From IMG/VR virus record IMGVR_UViG_3300045965_000031, positions 1 through 36,966 of that record: 36,966 nucleotides of DNA; one strand, 5' to 3'. The notes under the pieces were generated by a model. It made no database searches. It was not told where the DNA came from and saw only the letters and a list, made by a program, of their open reading frames with translations. Made by a program: the position numbers and the translations under genes. The stretch's first letter is position 1, and the number at the start of each line of letters is the position of its first letter. Origin of the DNA: a virus. Below, one piece after another: positions 3,488 to 31,413 of the stretch.

Positions 3488-3738
3488 ACCGCCCGAGCTG
3501 CTCGAGCCGCACCACCCGCAGGCTGGTCGGCGCCCCGGTCGGCCTGGCGGCTCGCGCCCGCCGGCCGGCCGGGCCGTCGCCAACCCTGGCGCGGCCGGCC
3601 GGCGGTTTGCGCGCCAGCCCAGGGCGCGGCCGGGGGGGCCTTGACAGGCCGCGGCGTGTAAGGAGCCCGGCATTCGACCGCGCCCGCTTACCTGTGCGGA
3701 AAAACTCATGCGCATGGGGGTGGGGGTCCGGGGCATGA
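3484..3738 (+). CDS. Possible small Arg/Pro/Gly-rich protein
   Basis: An 84-codon frame whose ATG overlaps the previous stop (ATGA) and whose own TGA overlaps the ATG of TerL at 3735. This perfect two-sided coupling is the reason to list it. The product is very rich in Arg, Pro, Gly and Ser and has no recognisable fold, which is also what a chance frame in GC-rich DNA looks like. It may serve mainly to carry ribosomes from 3487 to the TerL start. I do not recognise the protein. Confidence 0.35.
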   Translation: MNRPSCSSRTTRRLVGAPVGLAARARRPAGPSPTLARPAGGLRASPGRGRGGLDRPRRVRSPAFDRARLPVRKNSCAWGWGSGA

Positions 3739-5228: not shown

Positions 5229-5422
5229 TCGGCCTGCTTGTTACGCTGTTGATCGTCGTCATCGTCATCGGCGCCATCTGGTATCTGCTCGAGCTGCTGC
5301 CGCTCGATCCGACATTCAAGCAGGTGGCGAAAGTCATCCTGCTGGTGATCATCGTGCTGATTCTGATTTCGGCATTGCTCGGCTATCTGCCCGGCCCGGG
5401 CCTGCCGAAATCGTGGTGTTGA
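5225..5422 (+). CDS. Small two-TM membrane protein (Thivi_2564-like; holin candidate)
   Basis: A 65-residue protein coupled to TerL by ATGA. Two strongly hydrophobic stretches (about residues 3-22 and 37-56) flank a short polar linker, LELLPLDPTFKQ. The pattern resembles the small Thivi_2564 family membrane proteins of bacteria and phages. Length and topology also fit a class II holin, although the gene sits far from any lysozyme. Location is the inner membrane; the role in lysis is only a guess. Confidence 0.65.
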   Translation: MIGLLVTLLIVVIVIGAIWYLLELLPLDPTFKQVAKVILLVIIVLILISALLGYLPGPGLPKSWC

Positions 5423-5427
5423 GATCC

Positions 5428-6288
5428 ATGCCAAAATTCTTCTGCATCTATCACGGCAATTGCGCCGATGGATTCGCTTCGGCATGGATCGTGCGCCATG
5501 TGCTTAGCGAAGAAAATGTCGACTTCCATGCGGGCGTCTACCAAGACCCGCCGCCAAAAGTGAGCGGGCGGAATGTCATCATGGTGGACTTCAGCTACAA
5601 GCGCCCCGTGCTCGAGCAGATGGCGCAATCAGCAAACGCCATTTTGATCTTGGATCATCACAAGACCGCTGAGGAAGATCTTCACGACTTGCCACCGCCG
5701 CTGCCTTTCCGGGAATGGAGAAAAAATCCGGCCGGCTGTTCGGCGCTTTTCGATCTGACCAAATCCGGCGCGGGCCTGACCTGGGATTACATGTGCGTTG
5801 GATACCGCCGCCCTGATCTGATCAACCACATCGAGGATCGTGACCTGTGGCGCTTTGCGTTGGAAGGAACGCGGGAGATTCAGGCGAATGTCTTTTCGTG
5901 GCCCTATGATTTTGAGGTTTGGGATCGGCTGATGCGGACGCCAGTCAAGAATCTACGGGCCGAAGGCGAGGCCATCGAGCGGAAACATTTCAAGGATATC
6001 GATGAGCTGATTCGGGTCGTGACGCGCCGCATGAAGATCGGCGGTTACATCGTTCCGGTTGCCAACCTGCCTTACACGCTGACGAGCGACGCTGGCCATA
6101 AGCTCGCCAGCAACGAGCCCTTCGCCGCCTGCTATTGGGATACGCCCGAAGGCCGGGTGTTCTCGCTGCGCTCGCGCCCTGATGGCGTCGATGTATCGGA
6201 AATCGCCAAGCAGTACGGCGGCGGCGGGCACAAGAACGCGGCCGGCTTCCGCGTTTCATTCGATCAATTGGAGCAGTTTTTGCCATGA
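5428..6288 (+). CDS. DHH/DHHA1-family phosphoesterase
   Basis: A 286-residue protein from ATG 5428, six bases after the previous stop. Visible motifs, in order: YHGNCADGF (residues 8-16), MVDFSY with its Asp at 54, LDHHKT with DHH at 76-78, an HIEDRDLW acidic motif, and the DHHA1 signature GGGGHKNAAG at 264-273. These residues bind two metal ions in the NrnA/RecJ superfamily, which cleaves short RNAs, pAp, linear dinucleotides or ssDNA ends. By eye its G+C is clearly lower than that of its neighbours, which suggests recent acquisition. Possible roles are nucleotide recycling or removal of a host signalling nucleotide; the substrate is unknown. Confidence 0.88.
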   Translation: MPKFFCIYHGNCADGFASAWIVRHVLSEENVDFHAGVYQDPPPKVSGRNVIMVDFSYKRPVLEQMAQSANAILILDHHKTAEEDLHDLPPPLPFREWRKNPAGCSALFDLTKSGAGLTWDYMCVGYRRPDLINHIEDRDLWRFALEGTREIQANVFSWPYDFEVWDRLMRTPVKNLRAEGEAIERKHFKDIDELIRVVTRRMKIGGYIVPVANLPYTLTSDAGHKLASNEPFAACYWDTPEGRVFSLRSRPDGVDVSEIAKQYGGGGHKNAAGFRVSFDQLEQFLP

Positions 6289-7953: not shown

Positions 7954-9597
7954 ATGGCCGAGGACTATGCCGCGCCCGCCAGCACCGCCGGCAGCGCGGG
8001 CGACAGCAAGACCGAGCGCCTGATGAAACGCGCCGAGCGCGCGTTCGGCCGCAAGAGCAACTACTATTCGCTGCTGCGCGACACCTACGAATATACCCAG
8101 CCCGAGCGCTCGAGCTACGCCCAGGTCGGCGAGGGCCAGCAACGCAACCGGGTTTACGATTCGACCGCCATCATCGGCACCGCACGCCTGGCTAACCGGA
8201 TCCAGCGCATTTTGTTTCCGCCCTATCAGCGCTGGGCCATGCTGCGTCCCGGCAAGGACGTGCCCGCGCAATGGCAGCGCCCGCTCGGGCTGGTGCTCGA
8301 GAAGATCACCGAGCGGCTGTTCGCCGAAATCCAGACCAGCAACTTCGACACCGCCATCAACGAAATGGCGCATGACCTGGCGGTCGGCACCGGCGTGCTG
8401 CTGATCGAGAACGGCCGGCTTGGCGGGCGTCACGACGCGCCGGCCTTGCGCTTCACCGCCGTGCCGTCGGCATGCGTGGCGTTCGAGAACGGGCCGTTCT
8501 CGACGGTCGAGGGCATCTTCTACCGGCGCAAGGAAGCGGCGCGCGATATCCGCCGGCTCTATCCCGACTTGCGCAGCCTGCCGCACGCCATCGCCCAGGC
8601 CGAGGCGAGGAACCCCGATCAGGAATTCGAGCTGATGCAGGCGACCTACTACGACGCCGACGCGGCCGAATGGAAATTCTGCGTCATCGCCTGGACGGAA
8701 AAAACCGTGCTGGTCGAGCGGCGCTATCGGACGAACCCGTGGATCGTCATTCGCTGGCAGCTCGCGCCCGGCGAAATCGAGGGCCGCGGCCCGTGCCTGC
8801 AGGCCATGCCCGATATCAGGACCTGCAACAAGGTGGTCGAGCTGGTGCTCAAAAATGCCAGCCTGTCGATCGCCGGGCCCTACACCGCGGTCGACGACGG
8901 CACGCTGAATCCCGACACGCTGGTCATCGAGCCCGGCGCCGTGATTCCGGTCGGCGCCAATGCCGGACCCAAGGGCCCGAGCCTCATGCCGCTCGAGCGC
9001 TCGGGCGATTTCTCCGTCGCCGAGCTGGTGCTCGAGGACATGCGCACGAACATCAAGAAGATGTTGTTCGACAGCCAGATGCCGCCGCCCGAGGGGCCCG
9101 TGCGCAGCGCGACCGAGATTGTCGAGCGCATGAAGGAGCTGCAGGGCGACATCGGCGCCGCGTTCGGCCGGCTCAATCAGGAGGGCGTCACGCCGATCAT
9201 CCTGCGCTGCCTCGATATCCTCGACGAGATCGGCGAAATCGTGCTGCCGCTGAAGATCGACGGCCGCGAGATTGCCATCCAGCCGCTGTCGCCGCTGGCC
9301 CAGGTACAGGCCATGGACGACGTGCAATCCATCATCCAGTACGCGCAGCTCGTCGGCAGCACGCTCGGGCCCGAGGCGCTCAATGCCGGCTTGAACAGCC
9401 GGCGCGCCGCGGTCCGCATCGGCGACCTCATGGGACTGCCGATCGAGGTGCTGCAGACGCCCGAGGAAGTGGCCGCGCAGCAGCAGGCCCAGGCCGAGGC
9501 CGCGCAGCAGGAGGCGCTGCTGCAGTCGCCTGCCGTGGCGCAGATCGCCGGCAACGCCACCAAGCCGCAAGAGCCGGCGCCGAGCCCCATGACATGA
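7954..9597 (+). CDS. Portal (head-to-tail connector) protein
   Basis: A 547-residue protein with GGAGG upstream of ATG 7954. Typical podovirus connector features are an N-terminal helix-rich part with YTQPERSSY and RVYDSTAI, a LANRIQRILFPPYQRW segment, a central wing region, and a C-terminal Gln/Ala-rich coiled tail (VAAQQQAQAEAAQQEA). Twelve subunits would form the ring at one vertex through which TerL packages DNA and to which the tail tube proteins attach. Length is as expected for the T7/BPP-1 type connector family. Confidence 0.92.
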   Translation: MAEDYAAPASTAGSAGDSKTERLMKRAERAFGRKSNYYSLLRDTYEYTQPERSSYAQVGEGQQRNRVYDSTAIIGTARLANRIQRILFPPYQRWAMLRPGKDVPAQWQRPLGLVLEKITERLFAEIQTSNFDTAINEMAHDLAVGTGVLLIENGRLGGRHDAPALRFTAVPSACVAFENGPFSTVEGIFYRRKEAARDIRRLYPDLRSLPHAIAQAEARNPDQEFELMQATYYDADAAEWKFCVIAWTEKTVLVERRYRTNPWIVIRWQLAPGEIEGRGPCLQAMPDIRTCNKVVELVLKNASLSIAGPYTAVDDGTLNPDTLVIEPGAVIPVGANAGPKGPSLMPLERSGDFSVAELVLEDMRTNIKKMLFDSQMPPPEGPVRSATEIVERMKELQGDIGAAFGRLNQEGVTPIILRCLDILDEIGEIVLPLKIDGREIAIQPLSPLAQVQAMDDVQSIIQYAQLVGSTLGPEALNAGLNSRRAAVRIGDLMGLPIEVLQTPEEVAAQQQAQAEAAQQEALLQSPAVAQIAGNATKPQEPAPSPMT

Positions 9598-16482: not shown

Positions 16483-17073
16483 TTGAGCGATATCGCCGTT
16501 TCGATCTGCAGCAACGCGCTCCTGATGCTCGGCGCCGGCTCGATCACGTCCTTCACCGAGGGCACCGAGAAAGCCATGGTCGCCGGCGAGCTTTACCCGG
16601 GAGTCCTCGAAACGCTGATCGCCAGCTATCCCTGGCGCTTCAGCATGAAGAAGATGCAGCTCGCGCGGGAAACCGCGGTCCCGGTCAACGAGTATCAGCA
16701 CCAGTTCACCCTGCCGTCCGACAGCCTGATCCTGCGCGCCTGCTACACGTCGGGCACGCCGGGCGCGGTGCCGTTCCGCGAATACGAGGTGTTCGGCAAC
16801 GTGATCGCCTGCAACGCGCTCGAGCTGTGGGCCGAGTACCAGTTCCGCCCCGACGAGGCGCGCTTCCCCGCCTATTTCAAGCAGGCCCTGCAGGTGTCGC
16901 TGGCCGCGGTCATGGCCAAGCCGATCACCGAGGAAACCGAGATTGCCGAGTTGTGGGCGAGCGTCGCCGAAAGCATCACCGCCAATGCCCGCCGCATCGA
17001 CGCCCGCCAGCAGCCGCCGCAGCGGATCCGGCAGTTTCCGCTGGTCGACGCCCGCTTTCGTTTGAGCGGCTAG
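16483..17073 (+). CDS. Tail tubular protein A (adaptor, T7 gp11-like)
   Basis: 196 residues. It starts at TTG 16483, six bases after GGGAGG. The N-terminus SICSNALLMLGAGSITSF and the YPWRFSMKKMQLA segment are typical of podovirus tail tube A, which forms the ring between portal and nozzle. The length matches the family (about 190-200). Its place directly before tail tube B and after the capsid supports the call. Confidence 0.87.
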   Translation: MSDIAVSICSNALLMLGAGSITSFTEGTEKAMVAGELYPGVLETLIASYPWRFSMKKMQLARETAVPVNEYQHQFTLPSDSLILRACYTSGTPGAVPFREYEVFGNVIACNALELWAEYQFRPDEARFPAYFKQALQVSLAAVMAKPITEETEIAELWASVAESITANARRIDARQQPPQRIRQFPLVDARFRLSG

Positions 17074-17076
17074 CCC

Positions 17077-18999
17077 GTGGCCACGCGCCAGATCCAGACC
17101 AATTTCACCGCCGGCGAGCTCGACCCGCGGCTGGTGGCGCAGACCCGGCTCAAAGCCTACTACAACGGCGCCGAGCTCATGCGGAACGTGCTGGTGATTC
17201 CGCAGGGCGGCTTCAAGCGCCGCCCCGGCCTGCAGCTCACCTTCGCCTTGGGCGCCGGCGCCGATTTCCTGCCGATCCCGTTTTCGTTCAACACCGAGCA
17301 GCTTTACCTGCTCGTCCTCCGCAATGCCGCATTCGATATCATTCTGGTCGATCCCGTGGGCTTCAACGACGCCTGGGCGGCATCGGGCGTGCAGCCCTAT
17401 ACCGAAGCGGAACTGCCGCTGATCAATTGGGCGCAATCCGCCGACACGCTGTTGACCGTGCATCCCGACCGCGAGCCGCAGCGCTTCATCCGCATAAGCC
17501 ATGTCTCGTGGAGCGTGGCCGCGATCCCGTTCACCAATATTCCGACCTATGATTTCGGCAGCGGGCCCGAGCCGGTCATGTCGGCGACGCGCGGCTGGCC
17601 GCGCGCCATCACCTTCTTTCAGCAGCGCCTGTTCCTCGCCGGCCTGCGCTCGCGCCCGCAGACCATCCTGGCATCCAAGGTTGCCGATTTCCTCAATCTC
17701 GACACCGGCACCGGCGCCGACGCCGACGCGATCAACGTCACGCTCGATACCGACCAGATCAATCCGATCGTCAACCTGCACGCCGGCAAGACCTTGCAGA
17801 TTTTCACCACCGGATCCGAGTTCATCCTCGATCCGGGCGAGGCGCCGGTGACGCCGAAAAACATTGCGGTGCGCGAGCAGACGCGTCGCGGCTCAAAGCC
17901 GGGCGTGCGGCCGGGCGAGCTGGACGGGGCGAGCTACTACATCCAGCGCGGCGGCAAGGCGTTGCGCCAGTTCCTGTTCGCCGACCTCGAGCAGGCCTAC
18001 AAGGCGACGAATATCAGCGTCGTGGCGCCGCATCTGATCCAGGACCCGCGCAGCCTGGCGGTCCGCAAGTCCAACGCGCTCGACGACGCCGACTATATTT
18101 TCATGGCCAATGCCGACGGCAGCGCGACCGCGTTCACGTCGCTGCGCGACGAGGAAGTCAAGGCCTTCACCCTGCTCAACACGCCGGGCGAGTTCCGCCG
18201 CGTGGCCACGGTCGAGGGCGTCACCTACTGGATCACCCGGCGGATCATCGGCGGCGCGACGAAGCATTTCGTCGAGCGGTTCCGCGAGGACGGCTTGACC
18301 GACTCGGCGGTGTTCGTCACCCGCCCGGCGGCGACGAGTAGCGTGGCGCTCGCCGGGCAGACCGTGTTCGCCTGGTCGGCGGGCGTCAGCGTCAGCGCGG
18401 TTCACGTCCGCCGCAATGGCGCCAGCCTGCTTGCCAGCGAATACAGCGTCGCCGGCCTGCCGGGCGCGAGCGGCTCGATCACGCTGAACACGCCGGCTCT
18501 GGCCGGCGACGTCATCAGGATCACCTATCCGCTGTCGAGCCTCGCCGGACTTGGCCATCTGAACGGCGAGCAGGTTGTGGCGATCGTCGACGGCGCCGTG
18601 CAGCAGCCGCAGACCGTGACCGCCGGCGCGATCCCGCTGGCGCCGCCGGCCGAGACGCAGGCCGAGGCCGGCCTGTTCTATACCTGGCTGGTGCGGACCA
18701 TGCCGGTCGAGATCCAGTTGCGCGACGGCTCGACCATGGTCGGACGCAAGGCGCGCATCGTGCGCGCCACCGTGCGGCTGGACCGCACCAAGGGCATCAA
18801 GGTCAATGGGCAGATCGTCCCGTTCCGGCAATTCGCCGACGCGCCGCTTTCGCCGCTCGACGCGCCGATCGCGCCCAGGACCGGCGACTTCCGCATATCC
18901 GGCCTGCAGGGCTGGTCCGACCGGGTGCAGCTCACCTTGAACAACGACGCGCCCCTGCCGGCGACCGTGCTCGGCATCGCCTACACTGTGCAGGCCTGA
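17077..18999 (+). CDS. Tail tubular protein B (nozzle, T7 gp12-like)
   Basis: 640 residues from GTG 17077, three bases after tail tube A. The N-terminal NFTAGELDPRL and GGFKRRPGLQL motifs are characteristic of phage nozzle proteins. The remainder is beta-rich, in keeping with propeller and barrel domains. It closes the tail tip and gates DNA release. Shorter than T7 gp12, as is common in BPP-1-like phages. Confidence 0.88.
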   Translation: MATRQIQTNFTAGELDPRLVAQTRLKAYYNGAELMRNVLVIPQGGFKRRPGLQLTFALGAGADFLPIPFSFNTEQLYLLVLRNAAFDIILVDPVGFNDAWAASGVQPYTEAELPLINWAQSADTLLTVHPDREPQRFIRISHVSWSVAAIPFTNIPTYDFGSGPEPVMSATRGWPRAITFFQQRLFLAGLRSRPQTILASKVADFLNLDTGTGADADAINVTLDTDQINPIVNLHAGKTLQIFTTGSEFILDPGEAPVTPKNIAVREQTRRGSKPGVRPGELDGASYYIQRGGKALRQFLFADLEQAYKATNISVVAPHLIQDPRSLAVRKSNALDDADYIFMANADGSATAFTSLRDEEVKAFTLLNTPGEFRRVATVEGVTYWITRRIIGGATKHFVERFREDGLTDSAVFVTRPAATSSVALAGQTVFAWSAGVSVSAVHVRRNGASLLASEYSVAGLPGASGSITLNTPALAGDVIRITYPLSSLAGLGHLNGEQVVAIVDGAVQQPQTVTAGAIPLAPPAETQAEAGLFYTWLVRTMPVEIQLRDGSTMVGRKARIVRATVRLDRTKGIKVNGQIVPFRQFADAPLSPLDAPIAPRTGDFRISGLQGWSDRVQLTLNNDAPLPATVLGIAYTVQA

Positions 19000-19002
19000 G
19001 CC

Positions 19003-19737
19003 ATGGGCGCGATGCTCGGGCTCGGCATGTTGGGCGGCATGGCCGGCGGCGGCGGCGCCTCGTCGGGCGGCCTGCTGTCGACCCTGGGCGCGTTCACGTC
19101 GGCCGGCCTGCGCGTGGCACAGGGCCAGGCCGAGGCCGAGTCCTATCTCGACCGGGCGGTCATCTCGGGGCGCCGCGCCGACCAGTATGCCATGCGCGCC
19201 GAGGACGCCATGCGCGTCGCCGAGAGCCGGGCCGACGCCATGCGGCGGCGGGCCGGCGCCGGCGACGAGCAGGCCGAGCTGGCGGGGCTCGAGGCGCGCG
19301 GCGCGGCGCTCGCCGGCAAGGCATCGGCCAACACGCTGCGCGAGAATCTGCGCCGCACGCTGTCGACGCAGCGCGCCATCTTCGGCGCCAGCGGCGTGCG
19401 CGCCGACGAGGGCACGCCCGAGGTGATCGCCGCAAGCAGTCGGGCCGAGGCCGAGTACGACGTCGGCATGATCGAGCGCAATGCCGCCATGGCGAGCGCG
19501 GCGAAACGCATTTCCGGCGCCAATATCCGCGCCGACTCGGCCGAGCTGCGGCTCGGCGCCGTCGACGAGCTCAGGACCGGAATCGCCAATCGCCTATCCC
19601 TGCTGGCGGACGCCGACATGGCGCGGCTCGAGGGCCAGGCGTATCGGCGCCAGGCGGGCAAGGCGCGCAGCTTCGGCTTCATGCAGGGCGGCTTAAGCCT
19701 GCTCGATTTCGCGCAGAGGAAAGCCTACATTGGCTAG
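19003..19737 (+). CDS. Internal virion/core protein (T7 gp14-like position)
   Basis: 244 residues. A Gly/Ala-rich hydrophobic N-terminus (MLGLGMLGGMAGGGGASSGG) could insert in the outer membrane. A long alanine- and arginine-rich helical part follows (residues 40-200). Size, composition and place directly after the nozzle match the ejection proteins that extend the tail channel through the cell envelope. It overlaps the next gene by eight bases. Sequence similarity alone would not prove the role. Confidence 0.7.
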   Translation: MGAMLGLGMLGGMAGGGGASSGGLLSTLGAFTSAGLRVAQGQAEAESYLDRAVISGRRADQYAMRAEDAMRVAESRADAMRRRAGAGDEQAELAGLEARGAALAGKASANTLRENLRRTLSTQRAIFGASGVRADEGTPEVIAASSRAEAEYDVGMIERNAAMASAAKRISGANIRADSAELRLGAVDELRTGIANRLSLLADADMARLEGQAYRRQAGKARSFGFMQGGLSLLDFAQRKAYIG

Positions 19738-22700
19738 CGTTCCCACTTATAACCGCTCGATCCTGCCGCAGGCCGATATCGGCGCCCGGCCGCGCACCGT
19801 GTTCGAGGACAGCCCGGGCGTGGCCACGGTGTCGCGCCAGGAGCTCGGCACCGTGGTTTCCGACGGCGGGCGGCGCGAGGGCGCGCTCGCCGACCGCATC
19901 GACAAGCTGGTTTCGTTCGAGCTGGCGCGCGAGAGCGAGCGGGCGCAGATCGAGGGCGCCAAGGAAGGCGCCGCCGCCGGCGCCGAGCCCGGCTTTGCCA
20001 CACGGGACGAAATGACGATCCGGGCGCAGGCCTTCAACAAGGCCGGCCTGCAGTCGGCGGCGCAGCGTTTCGAGCTCGACGCCCGCAACAAGATCAACGA
20101 GCTGGAGTTCAAGCACCGGCGCGATCCGCAGGCGTTCATGACCGAGTCGGCCGCGTTCGAGCAGAGCGCTGCACGCGAGGTGCCGGCGGAAATCCGGCTG
20201 CAATACAACTTGATGTATCGCGGCCTGAGCCAGCCGGCGCTCAACCGCGTGCGCGTGCAGGCCGAGGCGTTCGAGCACGACAAGGCCAAGGCGGCATTCA
20301 ATGCCGCCTATCCCGACCAGCTCGCCTCGATCCAGAAGAACGCGCAGAGCAGCGCCACGGACCCGGCCGCTGCCGTCGCGGTCGAGCAGGATCTGCAGCG
20401 GCTCGAGGGCAACCTGGTCTATTTCGGGCCGAAGGAGGCGTTCGAGTTCAACGGCAAGCAGTACCCGGCCGATCCGACCCGCGCCGGCGCGTTCCCGCTC
20501 GAGCAGATGGTCGAGAAATACGGCAAGACCCGGGACGAGGCGCGCGAGAATGGCGAATTGGGCAAATGGAAGGTGTCACCCAAGACGCGCGAGTGGATCG
20601 AGTCGTGGAAGGCCGCGCAGCTCGACCCCAAGACCGGCTCGCCCCTGCGCGAGGAACAGGTGCAGAAGCTGTCCAACGCCATGTATGCCGACCTGGCCAA
20701 GATCCACGCCAGCCAGGAGGTCGACCGCTCGTTCTATGTCAAGCTGGTCGACGACGACCTGGCGAGCCGGGCGGCGCGCGGCACGGGCGTCGAGGGCGTC
20801 AGCGAGGCGCGCACGCTCGAGCTGCTCGGGCCGGTCGCCGCGGCGCAGTACAGGCAGAAGGCCAAGCTGGCCGATGACGCCTACGCGTTCCGCAACAAGG
20901 TGCAGTACATGACGCCGGCCGACCGCCAGGCCGAGGTGCTGAAGTTCGAGCCCGCCGCCGGCGCGCCCGGCTATCATCAGCAGCAGGAATTTTTCAAGGC
21001 GCAGCTCGCCGTGGTCGCCGATATCGAGAAGGCGATCAAGGAGGATCCCGCCGCGTTCGTGCTCGGCATGCCGAACATCGCCGGCGCCGGCGGCAAGGTC
21101 GACCGCGAGAAATCCTTCGAGGCGCAGCGCCATGTCGGCGTGCCGACCGGCGAGGAATGGTTCCTGACCAAGGGCGACGTCGAGCGCATCAAGCAGCGTG
21201 CGACCGCGCTCACCGGGCAGCAGAAGGGCAATTTCATCAATGACCTGCGCAAAGAGTTCGGCAAGGACTGGCCCTATGCGGTCCGCGACCTGCAGCGCGG
21301 CAAGCTGCCGGAGGAACTGATCGTGCTGTCGACGGTGAGCGACCCCGCCGCAAGGGCGCAGCTCGCCGACGCGCAGACCCAGGGCGCCGACGCGCTGGCC
21401 AAGGTCATCGGCAACGACAAGAAGAAGGATATCGACGGCCAGGTCGAGAGCAAGTTCGACGAGTTCGCCCGCTCCTTCGCCTATTCCGCCGACGGCCAGA
21501 AGATCACCGCGCGCCAGATCGACTCGGCCAAGCTGCTCGCCTATCGCTACGCCGCCGGCGGCGACACGCCGACCAAGGCGGCGCAGAAGGCGGTCGAGCA
21601 CCTCGCGACCAACGATTACGATTTCATCAAGAACGGCGCCGCCGGCGCCATCGCTCGGGCGCCGAAAGGCCAGGGCCGGCAATACGAAGCCTATGGCTCG
21701 CTGGTGCTCGACCGGCTGAAGCCGTCCGATATCGACACGCCGACGGCCGATCCCGCGACCGGGCTCACCCAGGCGCAGACCGACGCCGAATATCTCAAAT
21801 CGGTGCAGCGCGGCAATTGGGTCGCGAGCCCCGACGATGAAGGCTGGATAAGGCGCGACGAGTTCGGCAATCCGGTCTATCGGCGCGTCATCGTCCCCGG
21901 CAGCCTGGCGCCGCCGCCGGTGCCCGCGCAGAAAAGCCTGATCGAGTCCGGCAATGTCGACTTGGCCGCCCGGCCGCGGCTGCCGACCGGCAAGTATGCC
22001 GAGCTGGCGCCCCGTGCGTTCAATGTCGACGGCCAGGAGGTGCTGCTGTCGACCATCGGGCCCGACGGCGAGCGGCTCACCGCCGAGCGGGCGATCGAGT
22101 CCTACAAGGCGACCGGGCAGCATCTCGGCAAGTTCAAGAGCCAGGTCGCCGCCAATGCCTATGGCAAGGAGCTCGCCGCCTATGCCGCCGCGCTCAACCC
22201 GCGCATGCGGTTCGAGCCGCTCGGCTTCAAGGGCGCCGACGCCAAGAATCAGCCTCTCGCCATCGGGCCCGGCGAGACGGAGCGCGCCATGTTCGGCGAG
22301 ACGCCGCCGCCGCCGCTCGAGCAGGTTTTGCGCCAGGGCGGCGCCGGTGTCCGACAAATGCAAGTCATTCCGCGCACCCTGCCCGAGGCGCGCCCGTGGT
22401 ACGCGCCGCCGCCCGAGGCGCCGGCCGCGGCGCCGGCGGCACCCGCGCCAGGCGCCCGGTCCGCGGCGCCGGCCGCGCTGATCGAGCACGTCGCCAAATG
22501 GGAGAAGTTCCAGCCCAACAAATTCTTCGACGTCGTCGGCGACAATATCGGCTACGGCACGGCGGCGCGCGGGCGCGAGACGATCACCGAGCCCGAGGCG
22601 CGCCGCGAGCTGGTCGGCGCACTCGACACCTATCTTGCCGAAATCGACCGCATCAATCCGAACCTGCCGGCCGGGATCCGCAACGCGCTCGCCTCGCTCG

Positions 22701-22936
22701 CCTTCAACACCGGCGGCGCGTGGCTGCATCTCGACCTGGCGCCGGGCGACCGGCGGCGCAATTACAACGAGGCCGGCGGGCTGAACTTGCGCGGGCTGAT
22801 CGCCGCCGGCGAGCTCGACAAGGCGCGCGAGCGGTTCATGGCTTACGTGAACACGCGCAAGGGCGAGCGGCTCGAGGGGCTGGCCAACCGGCGGCGCGAC
22901 GAGCTGGCGAAATTCTGGCCGAAGGGCGCCGGGTAA
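19730..22936 (+). CDS. Internal virion protein with C-terminal lysozyme-like domain
   Basis: 1068 residues from TTG 19730, with GAGGA about ten bases upstream. The first ~900 residues are helical, with a Pro/Ala-rich linker near 880-910. From ~915 to the end is a lysozyme-like domain: KWEKF with Glu925, then FFDVVGD with Asp934 nine residues later, as in T4 lysozyme (Glu11/Asp20). A GYGT motif is at 941-944. The Thr that precedes the GYG in T4-type enzymes is absent, a form seen in a phage subfamily ending GYGT. The domain probably opens peptidoglycan during ejection. It is the only muralytic domain I find in the genome. Confidence 0.82.
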   Translation: MASVPTYNRSILPQADIGARPRTVFEDSPGVATVSRQELGTVVSDGGRREGALADRIDKLVSFELARESERAQIEGAKEGAAAGAEPGFATRDEMTIRAQAFNKAGLQSAAQRFELDARNKINELEFKHRRDPQAFMTESAAFEQSAAREVPAEIRLQYNLMYRGLSQPALNRVRVQAEAFEHDKAKAAFNAAYPDQLASIQKNAQSSATDPAAAVAVEQDLQRLEGNLVYFGPKEAFEFNGKQYPADPTRAGAFPLEQMVEKYGKTRDEARENGELGKWKVSPKTREWIESWKAAQLDPKTGSPLREEQVQKLSNAMYADLAKIHASQEVDRSFYVKLVDDDLASRAARGTGVEGVSEARTLELLGPVAAAQYRQKAKLADDAYAFRNKVQYMTPADRQAEVLKFEPAAGAPGYHQQQEFFKAQLAVVADIEKAIKEDPAAFVLGMPNIAGAGGKVDREKSFEAQRHVGVPTGEEWFLTKGDVERIKQRATALTGQQKGNFINDLRKEFGKDWPYAVRDLQRGKLPEELIVLSTVSDPAARAQLADAQTQGADALAKVIGNDKKKDIDGQVESKFDEFARSFAYSADGQKITARQIDSAKLLAYRYAAGGDTPTKAAQKAVEHLATNDYDFIKNGAAGAIARAPKGQGRQYEAYGSLVLDRLKPSDIDTPTADPATGLTQAQTDAEYLKSVQRGNWVASPDDEGWIRRDEFGNPVYRRVIVPGSLAPPPVPAQKSLIESGNVDLAARPRLPTGKYAELAPRAFNVDGQEVLLSTIGPDGERLTAERAIESYKATGQHLGKFKSQVAANAYGKELAAYAAALNPRMRFEPLGFKGADAKNQPLAIGPGETERAMFGETPPPPLEQVLRQGGAGVRQMQVIPRTLPEARPWYAPPPEAPAAAPAAPAPGARSAAPAALIEHVAKWEKFQPNKFFDVVGDNIGYGTAARGRETITEPEARRELVGALDTYLAEIDRINPNLPAGIRNALASLAFNTGGAWLHLDLAPGDRRRNYNEAGGLNLRGLIAAGELDKARERFMAYVNTRKGERLEGLANRRRDELAKFWPKGAG

Positions 22937-25900
22937 TGGCGAACATCTGGTCGGCACCGCTCGAGCGCAATGAGGAAGTCTGGGCCCGCGGACTCGCCGG
23001 CATGCCGACCTCCTATGGCGACCTGTTCAAGGCCGCCGGCGAGGAAGGGCTGGTGCGCAACCCGGTGCCGTCGCTCTATCGCGTGGTGCAGCGCGACAGC
23101 TATTTCCCGCATCTGGTGACGGACCCTATGACCGGACAGGAGGCATGGTCAGGCGAGGTGTGGGAACCGGCCGCGCGGCCGAGCCGGATCCTGTCGAGCG
23201 AGGAAGCGGAGAACCGCTACGGCATACCCGGCGAGCTGAGCTTTATCGGCATGGGCCAGGTGCCCGAGCTGCTGGCGCAGGAGCTGGTCGAGCTGAAGCG
23301 CGACGAGATTGCCCGGCGCGATATCATGCGGCGCGGCCCGGGCGGCATCGGCGGCTTTGCCACCCAGGCCGCCGCCGGCCTGCTGGCCAGCCTGGCGGAC
23401 CCGGCCAATATCGCCTCATCCTTCATTCCGATCGTATCCCAGGCGCGCTACCTGCAGGCCCTGCGCAACGCGGCCGGCGCCGGCGGGCGCTTCATCACCC
23501 GGGCCGGCCTGGGTGCGGCCGAGGGCGTCGCCGGCGCTGCCGTGGTCGAGCCGGTCATCTATGGCGCGGCGCGCCAGGAGCGCGCCGACTATGGCGCGGT
23601 CGACAGCCTGGTGAACCTCGCCTTCGGCGGTTTCCTGGGCGGCGGCTTGCATTCGGCCGGCGGCGCCGTCGGCGACCGGCTCGGGATCAGCGCCTGGGCC
23701 CGCGACACGGCGAGCGAGGACCGGGCGCGCACGGCGGTGCAGCTCAACCGCATCGAGCAGGACGGGCGCGAGCGCGCCACGCGCAGCAGCGTCGCCGACC
23801 TGGCGACCGGGCGGCGCGTCAATGTCGAGGGCACGCTCGACACCGAGCCGACCTGGCGCCTGGGCGACCCGCTGCCGGCCGAGATCCTCGAGGCGCGCCG
23901 CCAGGCGCAGGCCATGGCGTCGACCATGGTCGACACCCCCGCGCGCCAGCGCGACCGCGATCTGTGGGAAGGCGAAGCCTACGGCAAGGGCGCCGCGTTC
24001 AAGCAGATGCGCGCCGACATCGTGATCGGGCTGCCCGGCTCGGGCAAATCATCGGCCATCACCGGCAACCTCAAAACCGCGCATGGCGCGCTCGAGATTG
24101 ACGCCGAGCGCATCAAGGAGCTGATCCCGGAATATCGCGACGGGCTCGGCAGCCTGGCGACGCAGCAGGAGGCCGACGAGGTGGCGCGGCGCGTGCTGGC
24201 CCGGGCGCTGATCAACGGCGACAATATCGTGCTGCCGATCACCGGCAATGCGCGCGAGAGCATCGAAAAGCGCATCAACGCGCTGGCTCAGGCCGGCTAC
24301 GACGTTCATCTGCACTTCGTCGACCTGCCGGTCGAGAAGGCGGTGCAGCGCGTCATCACCCGGTTCAACCGGCGCCGCCGGTTCACCGATCCCGACGCCG
24401 TGCTGGCCATGGGCGACAATCCCCGCAACAATTTCGAGGCGTTCAAGAATGACCCGCGCGTATCGAGCTGGTCCGAGTTCTCCAACAACGTCGCCGAATT
24501 CACCGCCGCCAAGCGCGTCGGCGGGCAGCGACGCCGCGACCGACGTGGCGCTGATCGATCAGAGCGACCTCAGACAGCTCGAGCTTCTGGAGAAGCAATT
24601 GGCGGCGGCTATGAAGGATTCCCGGCTACCGCACAAGCGGCCCGCGCGCACACCGTTACCGGAACCGCGATCGACGTCCGACTGAAGGTGATCGAGCTGG
24701 ACCAGCTCGTGACCAGCCACACGATCGAGCTCGCCGAGAACCCGCTCTATCCGCAGGCGCTGCAGCCGCGCGAGCGGACCCGCGCCGCCAGCGCCGAGCA
24801 GATTCAGAAAATGGCCGCCGAGCTGAATCCCGAACTGCTCGGGCCCAACCCGTCCGCGGCCGAGGGCGCGCCGATCATCGGGCCCGACAACGTGGTCGAG
24901 AGCGGCAACGCCCGGGTGCTCGCCATCGCCCGCGCCTACGCGCAAGGGCTGGTCGGCGGCGACCAGTACCGCAGCTTCCTGCGCGGGCTCGGCTTCAACC
25001 TGACCGGGCTGACCAACCCGGTGCTGGTGCGCGAGCGGCTGACGCCGCTCAATCCGACCGAGCGCCAGCGCTTCGCGCTCGACGCCAACACGCCGGGCGT
25101 TGCCCGGTTTTCCGCCGCCGAGCAGGCCAGGAGCGACGCGCAGCGCATGCGGCAGACCGCGCTCGAGCTGCTGCGCCCCGGCGATATCGAGAACGAGGCC
25201 AACGCGCCGTTCCGCCGGGCGTTCGCCGACAGCCTGCCGGTGGCCGAGCGCGCCACGCTGTTCGACGCCAGCGGCGCGCTGTCGCCTGAAGGCCGCCGGC
25301 GCCTCGAGGCCGCCATGCTGGCGATCGCCTATGACGACGCGCAGCTATTGACCCGGTTGGTCGAAACCCGGGCCGAGGCGCTCGGGCCGATCGCTGGCGC
25401 GCTCAACGACGTCGCCGGCGACTGGGTGCGCATGCGGGGTGAGGCCCGCGCCGGCCGCATCATCGCCGAAACCGACACTACGCAGGACCTGCTCGCCGCC
25501 GTGGCCATGGTCGACCGGGCGCGGCGGGAGAATATTGCGGTCCAGTCCATCGCCGACCAGCGCGGCCTGTTCGGCGACGCGCTCACGCCGCAGGCCCGCG
25601 GCTTCCTCGAGCTGTTCTTCGAGCCGCCCCGGCCGGCAAGCCCGGGCAAGCCGGCCGTCGAGCCCTTGACCCGGCTGCGCTCGCGCACCGCCATCGCCGG
25701 CGAGCTGTCGCGCTATATCGACCAGGCCATGCAGACCCGGCCGGGCCCGACCCTGTTCGGCGACGCCATGCCGCCGGTGACGGCCGCCGATATTCTCGCC
25801 GCGAAGCGCCCCGACCTGGCGCCGATGAGCGAGCAGCCGTCCGCCCAGGCGATCGACCTCGAGCCCGGCCGCACGCTCGAGCGGCCGGCCGGCGCCGCCC

Positions 25901-26796
25901 CGATCGCCGCCGCGGTCGAGCGCCTGGAAGCGGCGGGTCGCAGCTTGCGCGAGGAAGCAGCCGCGGCGACGACTCGGCCCGATTGGATTGAGCGCCAGAA
26001 GGCCCGCCGGAAAGCGGCAGCCGAGCCGGCCCGCACCGAAGTCAAGGCGCAGATCGTCGGGGGGCCGGCGGCCGAGCTGCCGGCCGAGGTGCCGGCGACG
26101 GTGTTCAGCGGCTATGGCCGTCCCGAGAAGGGTTCGATTTACGGCACGATTCAAGAGCCGATCCTGGGCGGCGGCAAGTATTATGCATTCTCGCGCCAGG
26201 CCGCCGAGTATTTCGGGCCGCAGATCGAGCCGCTTGCCACCAGCGGATTCCGCAACCCGCTGGTGATTCGCAGCGACGATGAATTCAAGGCCTTGATCCG
26301 CGCCGCCGGCTGGCAATTTCCGATTCAGAGTGGCTTGCCGGCCGAGCAGATTGCGCGCGAGCAGCGCGCCATGAACGAGCTGATCAAGCGGCGCGGGCAC
26401 GACGCCGTGGTCATCACCTGGGACGACCTGGCGCAAGGCGATTTCGACCGTTACGGCCACGGGATCAAGACGCTGCGAACCGCGTTCGGCGAGCCGCAGA
26501 TTTATGTCCCGGGCCCGGCGCGCCGGGCGCCCGAGGGCGGGCCAAGGCTGGCGCAGGAGCGGGCCCAGGCCGGCGCCACCGGCGAGGACCTCGCCGCCCG
26601 CGTGCAGGCCGAGGCCGACTATGCCGCACGCCAGGCCGAGCTCGAGGCCGAGCTCGCGGCCGTGCGGAAACAGATCCGCGCCGACGATCCCGCCAGCCTG
26701 GCCGAGCTCGAGGCGCTCAAGGATATCGACGAGCAGGCCGGGGCCGAGCGCGCCGGCTACGACTTTGCCGCAAGCTGTCTGACGCGGGGCGGGTGA
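22936..26796 (+). CDS. Ejection protein with Zeta-kinase, ParB (DdrB-type) and ART-like domains
   Basis: 1286 residues from ATG 22936 (TAATG overlap). The N-terminus has hydrophobic Ala/Gly helices (FATQAAAGLLASLADP and NLAFGGFLGGGLHSAGG) typical of virion channel proteins. Residues ~355-540 are a Zeta-toxin-like kinase: P-loop GLPGSGKSS at 365-373, then EIDAERIKELIPEY with Asp389 and Arg392. From ~576 to ~720 a DdrB-type ParB domain follows, with GPDNVVESGNARVLAI. Residues ~1053-1192 look like an ADP-ribosyltransferase: VFSGYGRPEKG, GGGKYYAFSRQAAEYFG, RRGHDAVVI and FGEPQIYVP. The catalytic ART triad is not obvious. The architecture matches phage 'polyvalent proteins' thought to be injected with DNA to disarm the host. 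Confidence 0.8.
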   Translation: MANIWSAPLERNEEVWARGLAGMPTSYGDLFKAAGEEGLVRNPVPSLYRVVQRDSYFPHLVTDPMTGQEAWSGEVWEPAARPSRILSSEEAENRYGIPGELSFIGMGQVPELLAQELVELKRDEIARRDIMRRGPGGIGGFATQAAAGLLASLADPANIASSFIPIVSQARYLQALRNAAGAGGRFITRAGLGAAEGVAGAAVVEPVIYGAARQERADYGAVDSLVNLAFGGFLGGGLHSAGGAVGDRLGISAWARDTASEDRARTAVQLNRIEQDGRERATRSSVADLATGRRVNVEGTLDTEPTWRLGDPLPAEILEARRQAQAMASTMVDTPARQRDRDLWEGEAYGKGAAFKQMRADIVIGLPGSGKSSAITGNLKTAHGALEIDAERIKELIPEYRDGLGSLATQQEADEVARRVLARALINGDNIVLPITGNARESIEKRINALAQAGYDVHLHFVDLPVEKAVQRVITRFNRRRRFTDPDAVLAMGDNPRNNFEAFKNDPRVSSWSEFSNNVAEFTAAKRVGGQRRRDRRGADRSERPQTARASGEAIGGGYEGFPATAQAARAHTVTGTAIDVRLKVIELDQLVTSHTIELAENPLYPQALQPRERTRAASAEQIQKMAAELNPELLGPNPSAAEGAPIIGPDNVVESGNARVLAIARAYAQGLVGGDQYRSFLRGLGFNLTGLTNPVLVRERLTPLNPTERQRFALDANTPGVARFSAAEQARSDAQRMRQTALELLRPGDIENEANAPFRRAFADSLPVAERATLFDASGALSPEGRRRLEAAMLAIAYDDAQLLTRLVETRAEALGPIAGALNDVAGDWVRMRGEARAGRIIAETDTTQDLLAAVAMVDRARRENIAVQSIADQRGLFGDALTPQARGFLELFFEPPRPASPGKPAVEPLTRLRSRTAIAGELSRYIDQAMQTRPGPTLFGDAMPPVTAADILAAKRPDLAPMSEQPSAQAIDLEPGRTLERPAGAAPIAAAVERLEAAGRSLREEAAAATTRPDWIERQKARRKAAAEPARTEVKAQIVGGPAAELPAEVPATVFSGYGRPEKGSIYGTIQEPILGGGKYYAFSRQAAEYFGPQIEPLATSGFRNPLVIRSDDEFKALIRAAGWQFPIQSGLPAEQIAREQRAMNELIKRRGHDAVVITWDDLAQGDFDRYGHGIKTLRTAFGEPQIYVPGPARRAPEGGPRLAQERAQAGATGEDLAARVQAEADYAARQAELEAELAAVRKQIRADDPASLAELEALKDIDEQAGAERAGYDFAASCLTRGG

Positions 26797-26799
26797 CGC

Positions 26800-29412
26800 A
26801 TGGCTTACGAGGATTGCATCCGGGAATTCCGCCGCGCCACCGGCTCGCGCCTGGGCGAGGATCAGCTCACCGACCTGTTCACCGACATGACGACGCGCGC
26901 CAAGCGATTACAGCGTGAGTTGAACATGAACCCGCAGCAGGCCTTCGAGCGGGCCCGCCAGGAATTGAACGATCTGACCGCGCTGGCGGCGCAGATCGAG
27001 AAACGCAATCGCGTGCTCAACCTGCAGAAGCGCGTCAACCGCCGCAACTTCTATCTGGGCGCGCTCGACATGGTGACGCCGCTCACCCGCTACATCACGC
27101 CGGGCGTGCTGGTTGGGCTCGAGGCCAAGCTCACCGGCGTAAGCCGGCTGTTCCCGAACGCGCGCAAATCCGTGCAGGGCGCCGGCAATGCGCTGAAGGC
27201 CCGCTGGCTCGAGGGCATGGTGAGCGAGTTCGAGCGCGAGGGCGTGTTTCGCACCGTGCGCAATGGCGACCTCGATCGCGTCTGGGCGCGCGAGCTGTTC
27301 GAGCTGAACTCGGGCGACAGCGGGCGCCCGGGTATCACCGGCAACCAGGCGGCGCTCACCATTGCCAAGATCGTTTTCAATTACCAGCAGCAGGCCCGGC
27401 TCGAGCTGAACCGCCAGGGCGCCTGGGTCGGCAACTACCAGGGCTTCATCACCCGCACCTCGCATGACCCCGACCGGATCCGCGACGCCGGCTTCGAGGC
27501 CTGGCGCGACTTCATGCTCGGCAGCGATACCGGCCGCCCGCGGCTGGCCGAGCGCACGTTCGACGGCGTCGACCAGCGCGAGGATTTTCTGCGCGACGCG
27601 TACAACGCGTTGACGTCGGGCATTCATTTGACCCAGGAAGGGCTCGAGGGTTTCAAGGACCCGGCTTTCGTCGGGCCCGGCAACCTGGCGCGCAAGGTGT
27701 CGCAAAGCCGCAAGCTGCATTTCGTCGACGCCGACGCGTGGAGCGATTACCACGCCCGGTTCGGCCAGGGCAGCCTGATCGAATCGGTCATCAACGGCCT
27801 GCGGCTGAGCGCCGACAATGCGGCGCTCATGCGCGAGTTCGGCACCAACCCGAAATACGAGTTCGAGGCCGATCTGCGCTGGATCACGCAGCGCTATCGC
27901 AATGACGAGAAGGTCATGAGCCGCATGGGCCGCGGCCTGTCGAGCATCGAGCAGCGGGCCCGCCATCAGTTCATGCAGCTCGACGGCACCGCGCGCATGC
28001 CGGTCAACCGCCAGGGCGCCGCGATCGGCAGCGGCGCCCGGGCGTTGATTGCCATGGGCAAGCTGGGCGCCGTGGTGGTCAGCGCCATCACCGACGTTCC
28101 CAACAAGGCCGCCGAGCTGCGCTTCCAGGGCGCCAATCTGCTCGAGGCGTATTTCGACGGCGTCGCGTCTCTGTTCCGCGGCCGCGGCAGCGGGCAGGAA
28201 CGCGACGTCGCCGACCTGCTGAATGTCGGGTTTGAGGGCTGGCTCGGCGATATCGCCGCCCGGTTCGACGGCCAGGACACCACGCCCGGCCAGTTGTCCA
28301 AGGCGCAGAACCTGTTCTTCAAAATGTCGGGCATCAACTACTGGACCGACGCGCAGCGGCTCGGCATGTCGCTCATGGCATCGCGCCACCTGGCGCGCCA
28401 GCTCGACACGCCGTTCGATCAACTGCCCGGCCGGCTCGGGCCCTTGCTGGAAAGCTACGGCATCGGCCGCGGCGAATGGGAGCTGCTCGGCACCGTGGTC
28501 ATGACCCAGGCCAACGGCCGGCGCCACGTCACGCCCGACCGGGCGTTCGCCATTCACAGCGAGGATATCCTCGCGCATCTCAGCGCGATCGACGCGGCCG
28601 GGCTGGTGCCCGAGCGCCTGCGTGGCGTGACCGAGCGCCTGCGCCAGGCGGCGACCGCCGAGCAGCGCGAGGCCGCGGCGCAAAGATTCCGCGAGGACCT
28701 GTCGCTCGCCTTGCAGAGCTTCTACACCGACCGCAGCCGCTACGGCATCCTCGCCGCCGACGCCAAGGAGTTCGCCAAGGTGCAGCAGGGCAGCCAGCCG
28801 GGCACCGTGCTCGGCGAGGCCGCGCGCCTGTTCATGCAGTTCAAATCCTTCCCGGTGGCCGTCGTGACCAAGCTGCTCGGGCGCGAGCTGTACGGCTACG
28901 AATCGCGCGCCCATGCCGCGGCCGGCATCATTCACATGATCGTCGCCACGACGGCGTTCGGCTATCTGGCCATGACCATGAAAGACTTCCTGAAGGGCCG
29001 CAATCCGCGCGACCCGACCAGCGGCAAGACCTGGGCCGCGGCGCTGACCCAGGGCGGCGGGCTCGGCATCTATGCCGATTACCTGTTCGGCGAATACAAC
29101 CGCTATGGCGGCGGGCTCGAGACGCTGGGCGGGCCGTCGATATCCTTCATCGGCGACGTGCTCAGGCTGTACGGACGCGCCACCGACGGCGACGACGTTT
29201 CGGCGAACGCGGTCCGCTTCGCCATCAACAACACGCCGTTCATCAACCTGTTCTATGTGCGGCCGGCGCTCGACTACCTGCTGCTGTACCAGTTCCAGGA
29301 GGCGCTCAATCCCGGCTTCCTGCGGCGCTACGAGCGGCGCGTCGAAAAGGAAAACAACCAGACGTTCTGGCTGAAACCGAGCGAGTCCGCGACCCTGCTC
29401 GGCATGAGGTGA
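26800..29412 (+). CDS. Large internal virion / ejection protein
   Basis: 870 residues, three bases after the previous stop. The N-terminus is a helical, charged region (MAYEDCIREFRRATGSRL to QIEKRNRVLNLQKRVNRRNF), followed by a long helical body. A conserved-looking C-terminal part begins at AARLFMQFKSFPVAV, includes a probable membrane helix (IIHMIVATTAFGYLAM) and continues to GGLGIYADYLFGEYNRYGGG. This resembles the C-terminal domain of large virion proteins in many podoviruses and in polyvalent proteins. It is probably co-ejected with the preceding protein to form the translocation channel. Confidence 0.72.
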   Translation: MAYEDCIREFRRATGSRLGEDQLTDLFTDMTTRAKRLQRELNMNPQQAFERARQELNDLTALAAQIEKRNRVLNLQKRVNRRNFYLGALDMVTPLTRYITPGVLVGLEAKLTGVSRLFPNARKSVQGAGNALKARWLEGMVSEFEREGVFRTVRNGDLDRVWARELFELNSGDSGRPGITGNQAALTIAKIVFNYQQQARLELNRQGAWVGNYQGFITRTSHDPDRIRDAGFEAWRDFMLGSDTGRPRLAERTFDGVDQREDFLRDAYNALTSGIHLTQEGLEGFKDPAFVGPGNLARKVSQSRKLHFVDADAWSDYHARFGQGSLIESVINGLRLSADNAALMREFGTNPKYEFEADLRWITQRYRNDEKVMSRMGRGLSSIEQRARHQFMQLDGTARMPVNRQGAAIGSGARALIAMGKLGAVVVSAITDVPNKAAELRFQGANLLEAYFDGVASLFRGRGSGQERDVADLLNVGFEGWLGDIAARFDGQDTTPGQLSKAQNLFFKMSGINYWTDAQRLGMSLMASRHLARQLDTPFDQLPGRLGPLLESYGIGRGEWELLGTVVMTQANGRRHVTPDRAFAIHSEDILAHLSAIDAAGLVPERLRGVTERLRQAATAEQREAAAQRFREDLSLALQSFYTDRSRYGILAADAKEFAKVQQGSQPGTVLGEAARLFMQFKSFPVAVVTKLLGRELYGYESRAHAAAGIIHMIVATTAFGYLAMTMKDFLKGRNPRDPTSGKTWAAALTQGGGLGIYADYLFGEYNRYGGGLETLGGPSISFIGDVLRLYGRATDGDDVSANAVRFAINNTPFINLFYVRPALDYLLLYQFQEALNPGFLRRYERRVEKENNQTFWLKPSESATLLGMR

Positions 29413-29415
29413 GCC

Positions 29416-31413
29416 ATGCCCGATATTCCCATCCTCGAGAACGACCGGCGCCAGCAATACACCGCAACCGTCGGGCAGACGCAGTTCCCCTACGACTTCC
29501 CGATTTTCGGGACGGCCGACCTCGACGTGTACCGCACGCGCGGCGCGGTCACGACCCTACTGGCATTCAGCACCGACTACACCTTGACCGGAATCGGCGC
29601 GGCGGGCGGCGGCAATGTCGTGCTCAATGCCGGCGCCGTGGTCGGCGACATCATCACCGTGAACGGCAGCATGGCGGTCGAGCGGACCAGCGACTATCAG
29701 GAATCGGGCGACCTGCGCTCGGCCGTGCTCAATGCCGACTTCGACCGCATCATCATCATGATTCAGGAGCTGCGCTCGGCGGTCGAGAACACCGTGCAAC
29801 TGCCGCCGACCACGCCGCCCGGCATCGACCTGGTGATCCCGCCGCCGGCGCCGCTCAAATACTGGCGCTGGTCGGCGTCGAACGAGATCGAGTTCGTCGA
29901 CCTGCCGGCCGGCGGCGGCGGCGGGCCGGCGCTCACTGTGCCCATCCCGCGCGACCAGGGCGGCACCGGCAGCGCCAGCGGCTGGCAGATCGGCGTCATC
30001 ACCACGACGCCCTACACGGTGACGCCGACCGACGACAAGCGCACGCTGGTTTTCAACCGGCCGGGCGGGGTCGCGGTCAACCTGCCGGCGACCGACCTGG
30101 TGCCCGCCGGCTTCAGCTTCGACTTCTACAATCTGGGCGGGCTGGTCACATTCACGCCGAACGGGCTCAACACGGTTTATCCCGGGCTCGCCAGCCTGGC
30201 GGCGCCGCAGGGCGCCCGCGGCGACTTCAACAATGGCGGCGGCGCGGCGGCGTCGGGTGTCTGGTACGGCAGCCGCACCCAGCTCCCGCCCGCCGCCATT
30301 CCCGACGCGCAGGGCGGGCGGCTTACCCTGGTGCGCGGGGTGCCGCTGCCGAGCGCCAGTATTCGCGCGCTGACGCCGAGCGCCACCGATACGACCGGCG
30401 ACACGGTGACGTTCCCGACCGCACATAATTTCGTGACCGGCATGGGCGTCTGCGCCAGCGCCAATGGCGGCGGGCTGCTGGCCGGCAACCGGGTCTTCGC
30501 CCGGGTCAACTCGCCGACGCAGATTCAATTCCACCCGAGCCGGGCCGACGCCGACGGCAACCTGAACCGGGTCGACCTGACGGCCGCGATATCGGCCAGC
30601 ATCGGACCGTGCGAGATTTTCCTCGAGCGCTTCGCCGGCAAGCAGATCACGCTCTGGACCGGCGCGACCTGGGAGACGATCGCCATCCAGTCCGACACCG
30701 CGCTCAATCTGGCGGCGGTGCCGGCCGACAAGAACGGCGACGTGTTCGCCTATAAGGACGCCAACGGGGCGCCGCTGCTCGAGCTCGTGCAATGGTCGGC
30801 CGACACCGTGCGGGCAACCGCGCTCGCCCTGCAGGACGGCATCGAGGTCAAGGCCGGCGACCCGACCCGGCTCTATCTCGGCACGTTCCGCACCACGGGC
30901 GTGATCGGGCAGACCGAGGATTCGGGCGAGGTCGACCAGCGCCCGGCGCGCCGGTTCCTGTGGAACCGCTATAACCGCCAGGCGCGCAGCGTCCGCAGCA
31001 TCCATAGCGGCGCCGTCTCTTACACCTACGGCTCGACCACCTGGCGCCGGCCGAACGCGAACGGCATCAATGCCACAATGGGCTTGCAGCTCGTGCGCGG
31101 GCTCGACCTCGAGCCGGTCAACCTCAACGTGACGCATCTGTGCTTCACCGACAGCAGCGAAGCCTGCCAGGTTTCCATCGACCTGAACGGGGCGCTGGCG
31201 CCGGCCGGCGCGGCGAATATCGTCGGCGTGCAGATTGCCGGCGGCGGCTATGCCCTGGGCCCGGCGCACTATGCCGGCTATCCCGGCATCGGGTTTCATC
31301 ACTTCTACCCGCTCGAGCGCTCCATGACGGGCACCATCAACTTTTATCTTTACGGCAAGGTCGACGGCTCGAGCGTCGGCGAGGGCGCGGTGTTCGGGAG
31401 TGTGCAGGCATGA
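29416..31413 (+). CDS. Tail fibre / receptor-binding protein
   Basis: 665 residues. The N-terminal ~130 residues (TATVGQTQFPYDFPIFGTAD, LDVYRTRG, then SDYQESGDLRSAVLNADFD) match the T7 tail-fibre N-terminal domain that anchors fibres to the tail tube. The rest is beta-rich and Gly/Asn/Thr-rich, with a C-terminal IGFHHFYPLERSMTG segment. This is the likely host-range determinant. No C-type-lectin variable repeat of a diversity-generating retroelement is seen. Overlaps the next gene by ATGA. Confidence 0.87.
   Translation: MPDIPILENDRRQQYTATVGQTQFPYDFPIFGTADLDVYRTRGAVTTLLAFSTDYTLTGIGAAGGGNVVLNAGAVVGDIITVNGSMAVERTSDYQESGDLRSAVLNADFDRIIIMIQELRSAVENTVQLPPTTPPGIDLVIPPPAPLKYWRWSASNEIEFVDLPAGGGGGPALTVPIPRDQGGTGSASGWQIGVITTTPYTVTPTDDKRTLVFNRPGGVAVNLPATDLVPAGFSFDFYNLGGLVTFTPNGLNTVYPGLASLAAPQGARGDFNNGGGAAASGVWYGSRTQLPPAAIPDAQGGRLTLVRGVPLPSASIRALTPSATDTTGDTVTFPTAHNFVTGMGVCASANGGGLLAGNRVFARVNSPTQIQFHPSRADADGNLNRVDLTAAISASIGPCEIFLERFAGKQITLWTGATWETIAIQSDTALNLAAVPADKNGDVFAYKDANGAPLLELVQWSADTVRATALALQDGIEVKAGDPTRLYLGTFRTTGVIGQTEDSGEVDQRPARRFLWNRYNRQARSVRSIHSGAVSYTYGSTTWRRPNANGINATMGLQLVRGLDLEPVNLNVTHLCFTDSSEACQVSIDLNGALAPAGAANIVGVQIAGGGYALGPAHYAGYPGIGFHHFYPLERSMTGTINFYLYGKVDGSSVGEGAVFGSVQA

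Follow-up and report, generated by a model that had tools for sequence, protein, structure and literature searches.

Single terminal cysteines in an effector-carrying, epsilon15-type gp16 and its gp17 partner suggest a disulfide joint between two ejection proteins

The window, meaning the whole stretch of DNA analysed here, is a 36,966-base virus record (IMGVR_UViG_3300045965_000031). The genes and features on which the analysis draws are the following.

3708-5228: TerL-like gene
5413-6288: DHH phosphoesterase gene between the TerL and portal genes (phrog_4771, E 1e-106), for which no PADLOC match was obtained
7954-9597: portal gene
16483-17073, + strand: tail tubular A-like gene
17077-18999, + strand: tail tubular B/nozzle-like gene
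19003-19737, + strand: internal virion protein in the gp14 position, no cysteine (phrog_418, PHROG E 6.2e-12)
19730-22936, + strand: gp15-like protein with a C-terminal lysozyme domain (Pfam PF00959, E 1.7e-9)
22936-26796, + strand: cargo-bearing ejection protein of gp16 type, 1286 aa (ORF and translation)
22987-23742, + strand: conserved N-terminal core, residues 18-269 (phrog_3003, PHROG E 9e-37; alignments)
24010-24453, + strand: predicted Zeta-type P-loop kinase domain, residues 359-506 (Pfam PF06414, E 1.9e-16)
24661-25038, + strand: DdrB-type ParB domain, residues 576-701 (Pfam PF18763, E 3.3e-32)
26092-26511, + strand: ART-PolyVal-like region, residues 1053-1192 (hhalign, one comparison; alignments)
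26689-26793, + strand: conserved C-terminal helix/tail, residues 1252-1286 (tail in all separately encoded members)
26776-26778, + strand: codon of Cys1281, sole cysteine of the gp16-like protein, six from its end
26800-29412, + strand: gp17-like partner, phrog_684, 870 aa, with a single cysteine (PHROG E 5.6e-159)
26815-26817, + strand: codon of Cys6, sole cysteine of the gp17-like protein
29416-31413: tail fibre gene

The gp16-like gene sits between the genes for the gp15-like (lysozyme) protein, which has no cysteine over 1068 aa, and the gp17-like (phrog_684) protein, downstream of the tail tubular A and B genes. This gene order is shared with Pseudomonas phage Ab31, Pelagibacter phages, Vibrio phage 1.182.O, Alcaligenes phage Piluca, and epsilon15. 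Because the genes in matching order in epsilon15 are named gp14, gp15, gp16, and gp17, the slot of the window gene is that of epsilon15 gp16. The first-pass annotation had placed the gene in a T7-type core-protein slot; it does adjoin internal virion proteins, but the slot is not strictly that of T7 gp15/gp16, and no sequence relation was detected between the gp16 core and either T7 gp15/gp16 or P22 gp7/gp20/gp16. The window gp17-like protein matches the T7-gp16-type PHROG 342 (E 2.8e-8), and T7 gp16 was considered as a natural gp16-gp17 fusion, for which the alignment is weak (35 columns). Residue 2 is a cysteine, and the only one, in the gp14-type internal proteins of T7, epsilon15, phiV10, YeP6, Piluca, and TPWB-05 (MC...; loci L125 for T7, L027 for epsilon15, and L127, L129, L005, and L024); the counterparts in the window and in Ab31, Greip, and VP2 lack it.

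An ATG-initiated reading frame spans exactly the interval annotated for the gp16-like gene. Its N-terminal core is common to the Ab31, Vibrio, and Pelagibacter proteins, several of which are annotated "internal virion protein", and 28 columns are invariant in an alignment of seven sequences. Hydrophobic N-terminal helices had been described for this segment; it is indeed Ala/Gly-rich and helical in the model of a relative, but the best 19-residue hydropathy is only 1.39, and a clear membrane helix is thus absent. The core fold was modelled by AlphaFold at pLDDT 74, yet there were no PDB matches with E < 1, and a search for a solved structure matching the gp16 core or gp17 found none. At the other end of the protein the tail is predicted to be helical in a relative (L118).

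Between these ends lie the parts that had been read as a Zeta-toxin kinase, a ParB domain, and an ART-like domain, for which profile searches and structure predictions had been proposed; these domain assignments mostly held up. The first of these is a predicted Zeta/PNK-type kinase: the Zeta_toxin match scores 60.5 bits against a cut-off of 22.3, the P-loop GLPGSGKSS lies at residues 365-373 as described, and a profile comparison matches the solved zeta toxin 1gvn (1gvn_B) with E 1.9e-6, with an alignment of similar strength to Pnkp1. Lys371 aligns with zeta Lys46, Arg158 is kept, and Thr118, a UNAG contact, is kept as Thr. The motif EIDAERIK is present at 387-394, but its Asp389, singled out in the first-pass annotation, is not the Zeta catalytic base; the column of Asp67, the catalytic residue of zeta toxin (PMC3062530), holds Glu391, a conservative change, and that of Glu116 holds Pro. 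With these two substitutions the phosphorylation of UDP-GlcNAc that had been attributed to the domain cannot be presumed and is not supported. A Zeta domain 29% identical to that of the window occurs in halovirus HCTV-5 gp114 (L026:3539-7420), a protein annotated with ParB that has 2 cysteines and a different gene context.

The DdrB-type ParB assignment holds at 111.6 bits against a cut-off of 27.6, and this domain is 30-40% identical to phage proteins including P1 DdrB. Support for the ART-like domain is weaker and comes from profile-profile comparison. A single hhalign comparison, of the window region plus one genomic homologue (L229) against seven ART-PolyVal sequences, gave a probability of 87% and E 3.9e-6, the value having been brought up to this level by adding L229 and a better ART-PolyVal profile, whereas a Pfam search up to E 10 gave no match of residues 1053-1192 to ART-PolyVal (PF18760). 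A PDB sequence search gave no relevant match for the region, tblastn in phages and plasmids found no relative, and an AlphaFold prediction from two sequences reached pLDDT 49. The ART-PolyVal active site is H-Y-D, according to Iyer et al. (PMC5512222). In the window region the position of the His is occupied by Ser1058, so ART activity appears doubtful on the aligned residues, though Tyr1082/1083 and Asp1156 are retained. The homologue L229 (G330:C9) is a protein on a cellular-genome contig whose ART-like domain is 40% identical to that of the window and has Arg at the strand-1 position.

Loci were gathered from contigs of viral and cellular genomes by means of the N-terminal core, and also by gp17. 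Separately encoded proteins in the slot range from 398 aa (core, linker, and tail) to about 1800 aa. Relatives carry ART, ParB, lysozyme, GGDEF, NUDIX, JAB, or no cargo at all. Pfam assigns LPD3 to the protein of L029 and ddrB-ParB to those of L028, L051, L082, and L123. A GGDEF (diguanylate cyclase) domain fills the slot in L050:6977-8905 (E 3e-9), and RadC/JAB occurs in forms in which gp16 and gp17 are fused (L060). In L206:2463-5957, L210:2423-5971, and L214:2495-5884 an ADPrib_exo_Tox-type ART (E down to 6e-26) stands directly before the C-terminal tail, with a NUDIX domain in addition in L210; all three keep the single-cysteine rule described below. Matches below cut-off were a weak HipA-like one in L206 and PBECR1 in L044. 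The gp16 slot is thus a swappable cargo bay framed by the conserved N-terminal core and C-terminal helix, and Zeta-ParB-ART is one among many cargo combinations. The suggestion that this three-domain order may be new stands, as it was found only in the window and in a close relative, L002, whose protein is 90% identical.

Proteins of known systems share parts of this arrangement. The internal virion proteins gp16 and gp17 of epsilon15 (Uetakevirus) agree with the window pair in gene order, in gp17 homology, in the single C-terminal cysteine of gp16 (AAACFLRNP), and in Cys5 of gp17, but epsilon15 gp16, at 634 aa, is by its length too short for three cargo domains. Piluca gp47 and the gp16-like protein of Acinetobacter TPWB-05 (SLT plus ddrB-ParB by Pfam) share the slot, the DdrB-ParB, and one C-terminal cysteine; a transglycosylase (SLT) replaces Zeta, the ART-like region is absent, and the N-terminus is divergent. 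The Vibrio phage 1.182.O protein (AUR93058) has a homologous N-terminal core, ART-PolyVal cargo (Pfam, E 3e-17), and the C-terminal cysteine, but is 566 aa long and has neither Zeta nor ParB. Polyvalent proteins, as presented by Iyer et al. 2017 (PMC5512222), combine several effectors, and their packaging and injection have been proposed; DdrB-ParB, ART, and Zeta are among the domains listed, including a lysozyme-DdrB fusion of Acinetobacter prophages. The gp16-like protein fits this type, with several unrelated effector domains on one polypeptide near late genes, and its reading as a polyvalent protein encoded at the position of an ejection protein is well supported: by synteny, by an N-terminal core shared with proteins annotated as internal virion proteins, and by the other effectors that relatives carry in the same place. 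It is a new architecture within a known class; the text of that paper has no mention of epsilon15, cysteine, or disulfide, nor, in the portion covered, of the core/tail frame of the slot. MuF-effector fusions likewise join a virion protein to exchangeable effectors, Zeta included (PMC5512222), but on another carrier protein, whereas in the window protein a conserved end lies on either side of the effectors. The window protein probably enters the bacterium before the viral DNA, bearing its three enzyme-like parts, and the cargo bay points toward new early-infection effectors of the ART, NUDIX, GGDEF, ParB, and Zeta types.

The unexpected part of the locus, missed in the first-pass annotation, is a paired single-cysteine rule, from which we infer a mechanism. 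All separately encoded slot proteins end in the conserved tail with one cysteine. We reduced 103 complete gp16/gp17 pairs to 45 at 70% gp17 identity and to 31 at 50%. In the collected contigs gp17 starts were picked by closeness to the gp16 stop and not by cysteine, and annotated phages kept their starts as deposited, APEC excepted (an upstream GTG adjoining the gp16 stop). Exactly one cysteine, lying within the last 10 residues, was found in gp16 in 45/45 non-redundant pairs (31/31 at 50%), and gp17 has a cysteine within its first 20 residues in all 45, this being the only one of the protein in 44 (31/31 at 50%). The rest of gp16 holds no cysteine in 28,339 residues and the rest of gp17 a single one in 38,148, where about 160 and about 217, respectively, would be expected from the nozzle-like proteins of the same loci (0.57% Cys; 355 in 62,708). 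This is far beyond chance. An additional set of about 50 loci, in which near-copies are numerous, obeys the rule, as do epsilon15, phiV10, VP2, Dunaliella virus SI2, and others, with gp17 often only 20-30% identical. The rule reaches from Pelagibacter phages to distant epsilon15-like lineages. The exceptions are a second cysteine in gp16 of L019 and one extra cysteine each in gp17 of TPWB-05 and L196. A literature search, most subscription journals lying outside its reach, brought up no account of cysteines or disulfides in ejection proteins.

Two explanations of the pattern would dispense with any function of the thiols. The end residues could be forced if the end of gp16, the ribosome site, and the start of gp17 share the same bases: overlaps of a few bases between the genes are frequent, and the final Arg/Gly codons of the gp16 tail could contain a Shine-Dalgarno sequence. 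Both cysteines are nevertheless kept across gaps of 134 bp in SI2, about 520 bp in TPWB-05, and about 2.85 kb in ZCVPP1 (gp16 family match E 3e-8), and overlap cannot account for the missing cysteines in the remainder of the proteins; it was rejected as a cause, since the gene pairs that lie apart largely refute it, and we give it next to no weight. Alternatively, ejected proteins may simply avoid cysteine, the end positions being tolerated leftovers. Indeed 69/76 gp15-like neighbours are Cys-free, and T7 gp15/gp16 and P22 gp7/gp20/gp16, which share the ejection role and the Cys-free body, have no cysteine at all, the end pair included; cysteine avoidance is therefore broader than any staple and occurs without one. 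Mere tolerance, though, would not hold a cysteine at the same place in all 45 lineages, which makes avoidance alone a very improbable account.

The reading we prefer, at a probability of roughly 0.6, is that Cys1281 of the effector-bearing, epsilon15-type gp16 is disulfide-bonded to Cys6 of gp17 and that both exit the virion as one end-to-end chain. An interchain disulfide between the two terminal cysteines would imply equal copy numbers and export of cargo carrier and gp17 as one chain. Exclusion of cysteine elsewhere would probably prevent wrong cross-links while the chains thread the portal in an oxidising environment, and the reducing cytoplasm could then cut the bridge, freeing the cargo to act. 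These questions bear on the ordered exit of podophage ejection proteins from the capsid and their connection across the envelope. If true, the disulfide joint would define a general delivery design of conserved ends, exchangeable effector cargo, and a redox-sensitive joint.

Another arrangement of the same genes bears on this proposal. In one clade gp16 and gp17 form a single polypeptide of about 1730-2750 aa. At the junction (...YAQAIRAAADRVGNDDAARSAMQMASKGQLTAMEIDTLL...) the gp16 tail helix continues straight into the gp17 head and both cysteines are absent; a peptide bond would here have replaced the disulfide. Outside L141, the coding part of the fusions is Cys-free, although the nozzle proteins encoded at these loci have 3-8 cysteines. 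The only clear break of cysteine exclusion among the fusions is the fused protein of L141 (L141:1-5835), with seven cysteines in a cargo segment (CSPSKDCAQYCYA), possibly a GP88-like domain. In a gp17 tree the nine fused representatives form one clade with support 100, nested inside the separate forms, and so represent one inherited fusion event; that the clade is a single evolutionary event counts against the staple as evidence. The existence of fused forms also means that not every system needs release from gp17. The fuller proposition, in which the sole cysteines staple the two ejection proteins, cytoplasmic reduction frees the effectors, and the device is near universal in epsilon15-type modules with one replacement by fusion, is possible at somewhat less than even odds.

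The fusion clade also helps to weigh two explanations that give the cysteines a role without pairing them. The end cysteines could act separately, in gp16-gp16 and gp17-gp17 disulfides, at a shared metal site, or through acylation anchoring gp16 and gp17 individually to the membrane. Both have a single thiol close to a flexible end, and gp14 of T7, epsilon15, and some others has its lone cysteine at residue 2, so a single end-thiol in gp16 does not have to find its partner in gp17. That both cysteines are lost together exactly where the ends are fused would be unexpected for independent functions, and we consider separate action unlikely. Somewhat less likely still, the Cys-bearing ends could be non-covalent docking or packaging signals with cysteine as a required contact residue; conservation does extend past the cysteines, to A-A-A-x-C in the gp16 tail and C-I-x-x-V/I-x-x-A-x-G in the gp17 head, but docking leaves unexplained both the exclusion of cysteine elsewhere and its loss from both ends in the fusions. 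For the disulfide joint, a cysteine pair present in dozens of distant phages and missing where the chains are fused makes a specific prediction that is cheap to test.

Two further proteins resemble fusions. One (the slot protein of podovirus ctype202, L025:3772-11214, 2480 aa, with ddrB-ParB and 0 Cys) was tried as a second gp16-gp17 fusion and rejected, its gp17 homology being undetectable. In L209:2587-7131 a nozzle-like protein appears joined in frame to an N-terminally truncated gp17, which probably reflects a deletion in the remnant of a prophage.
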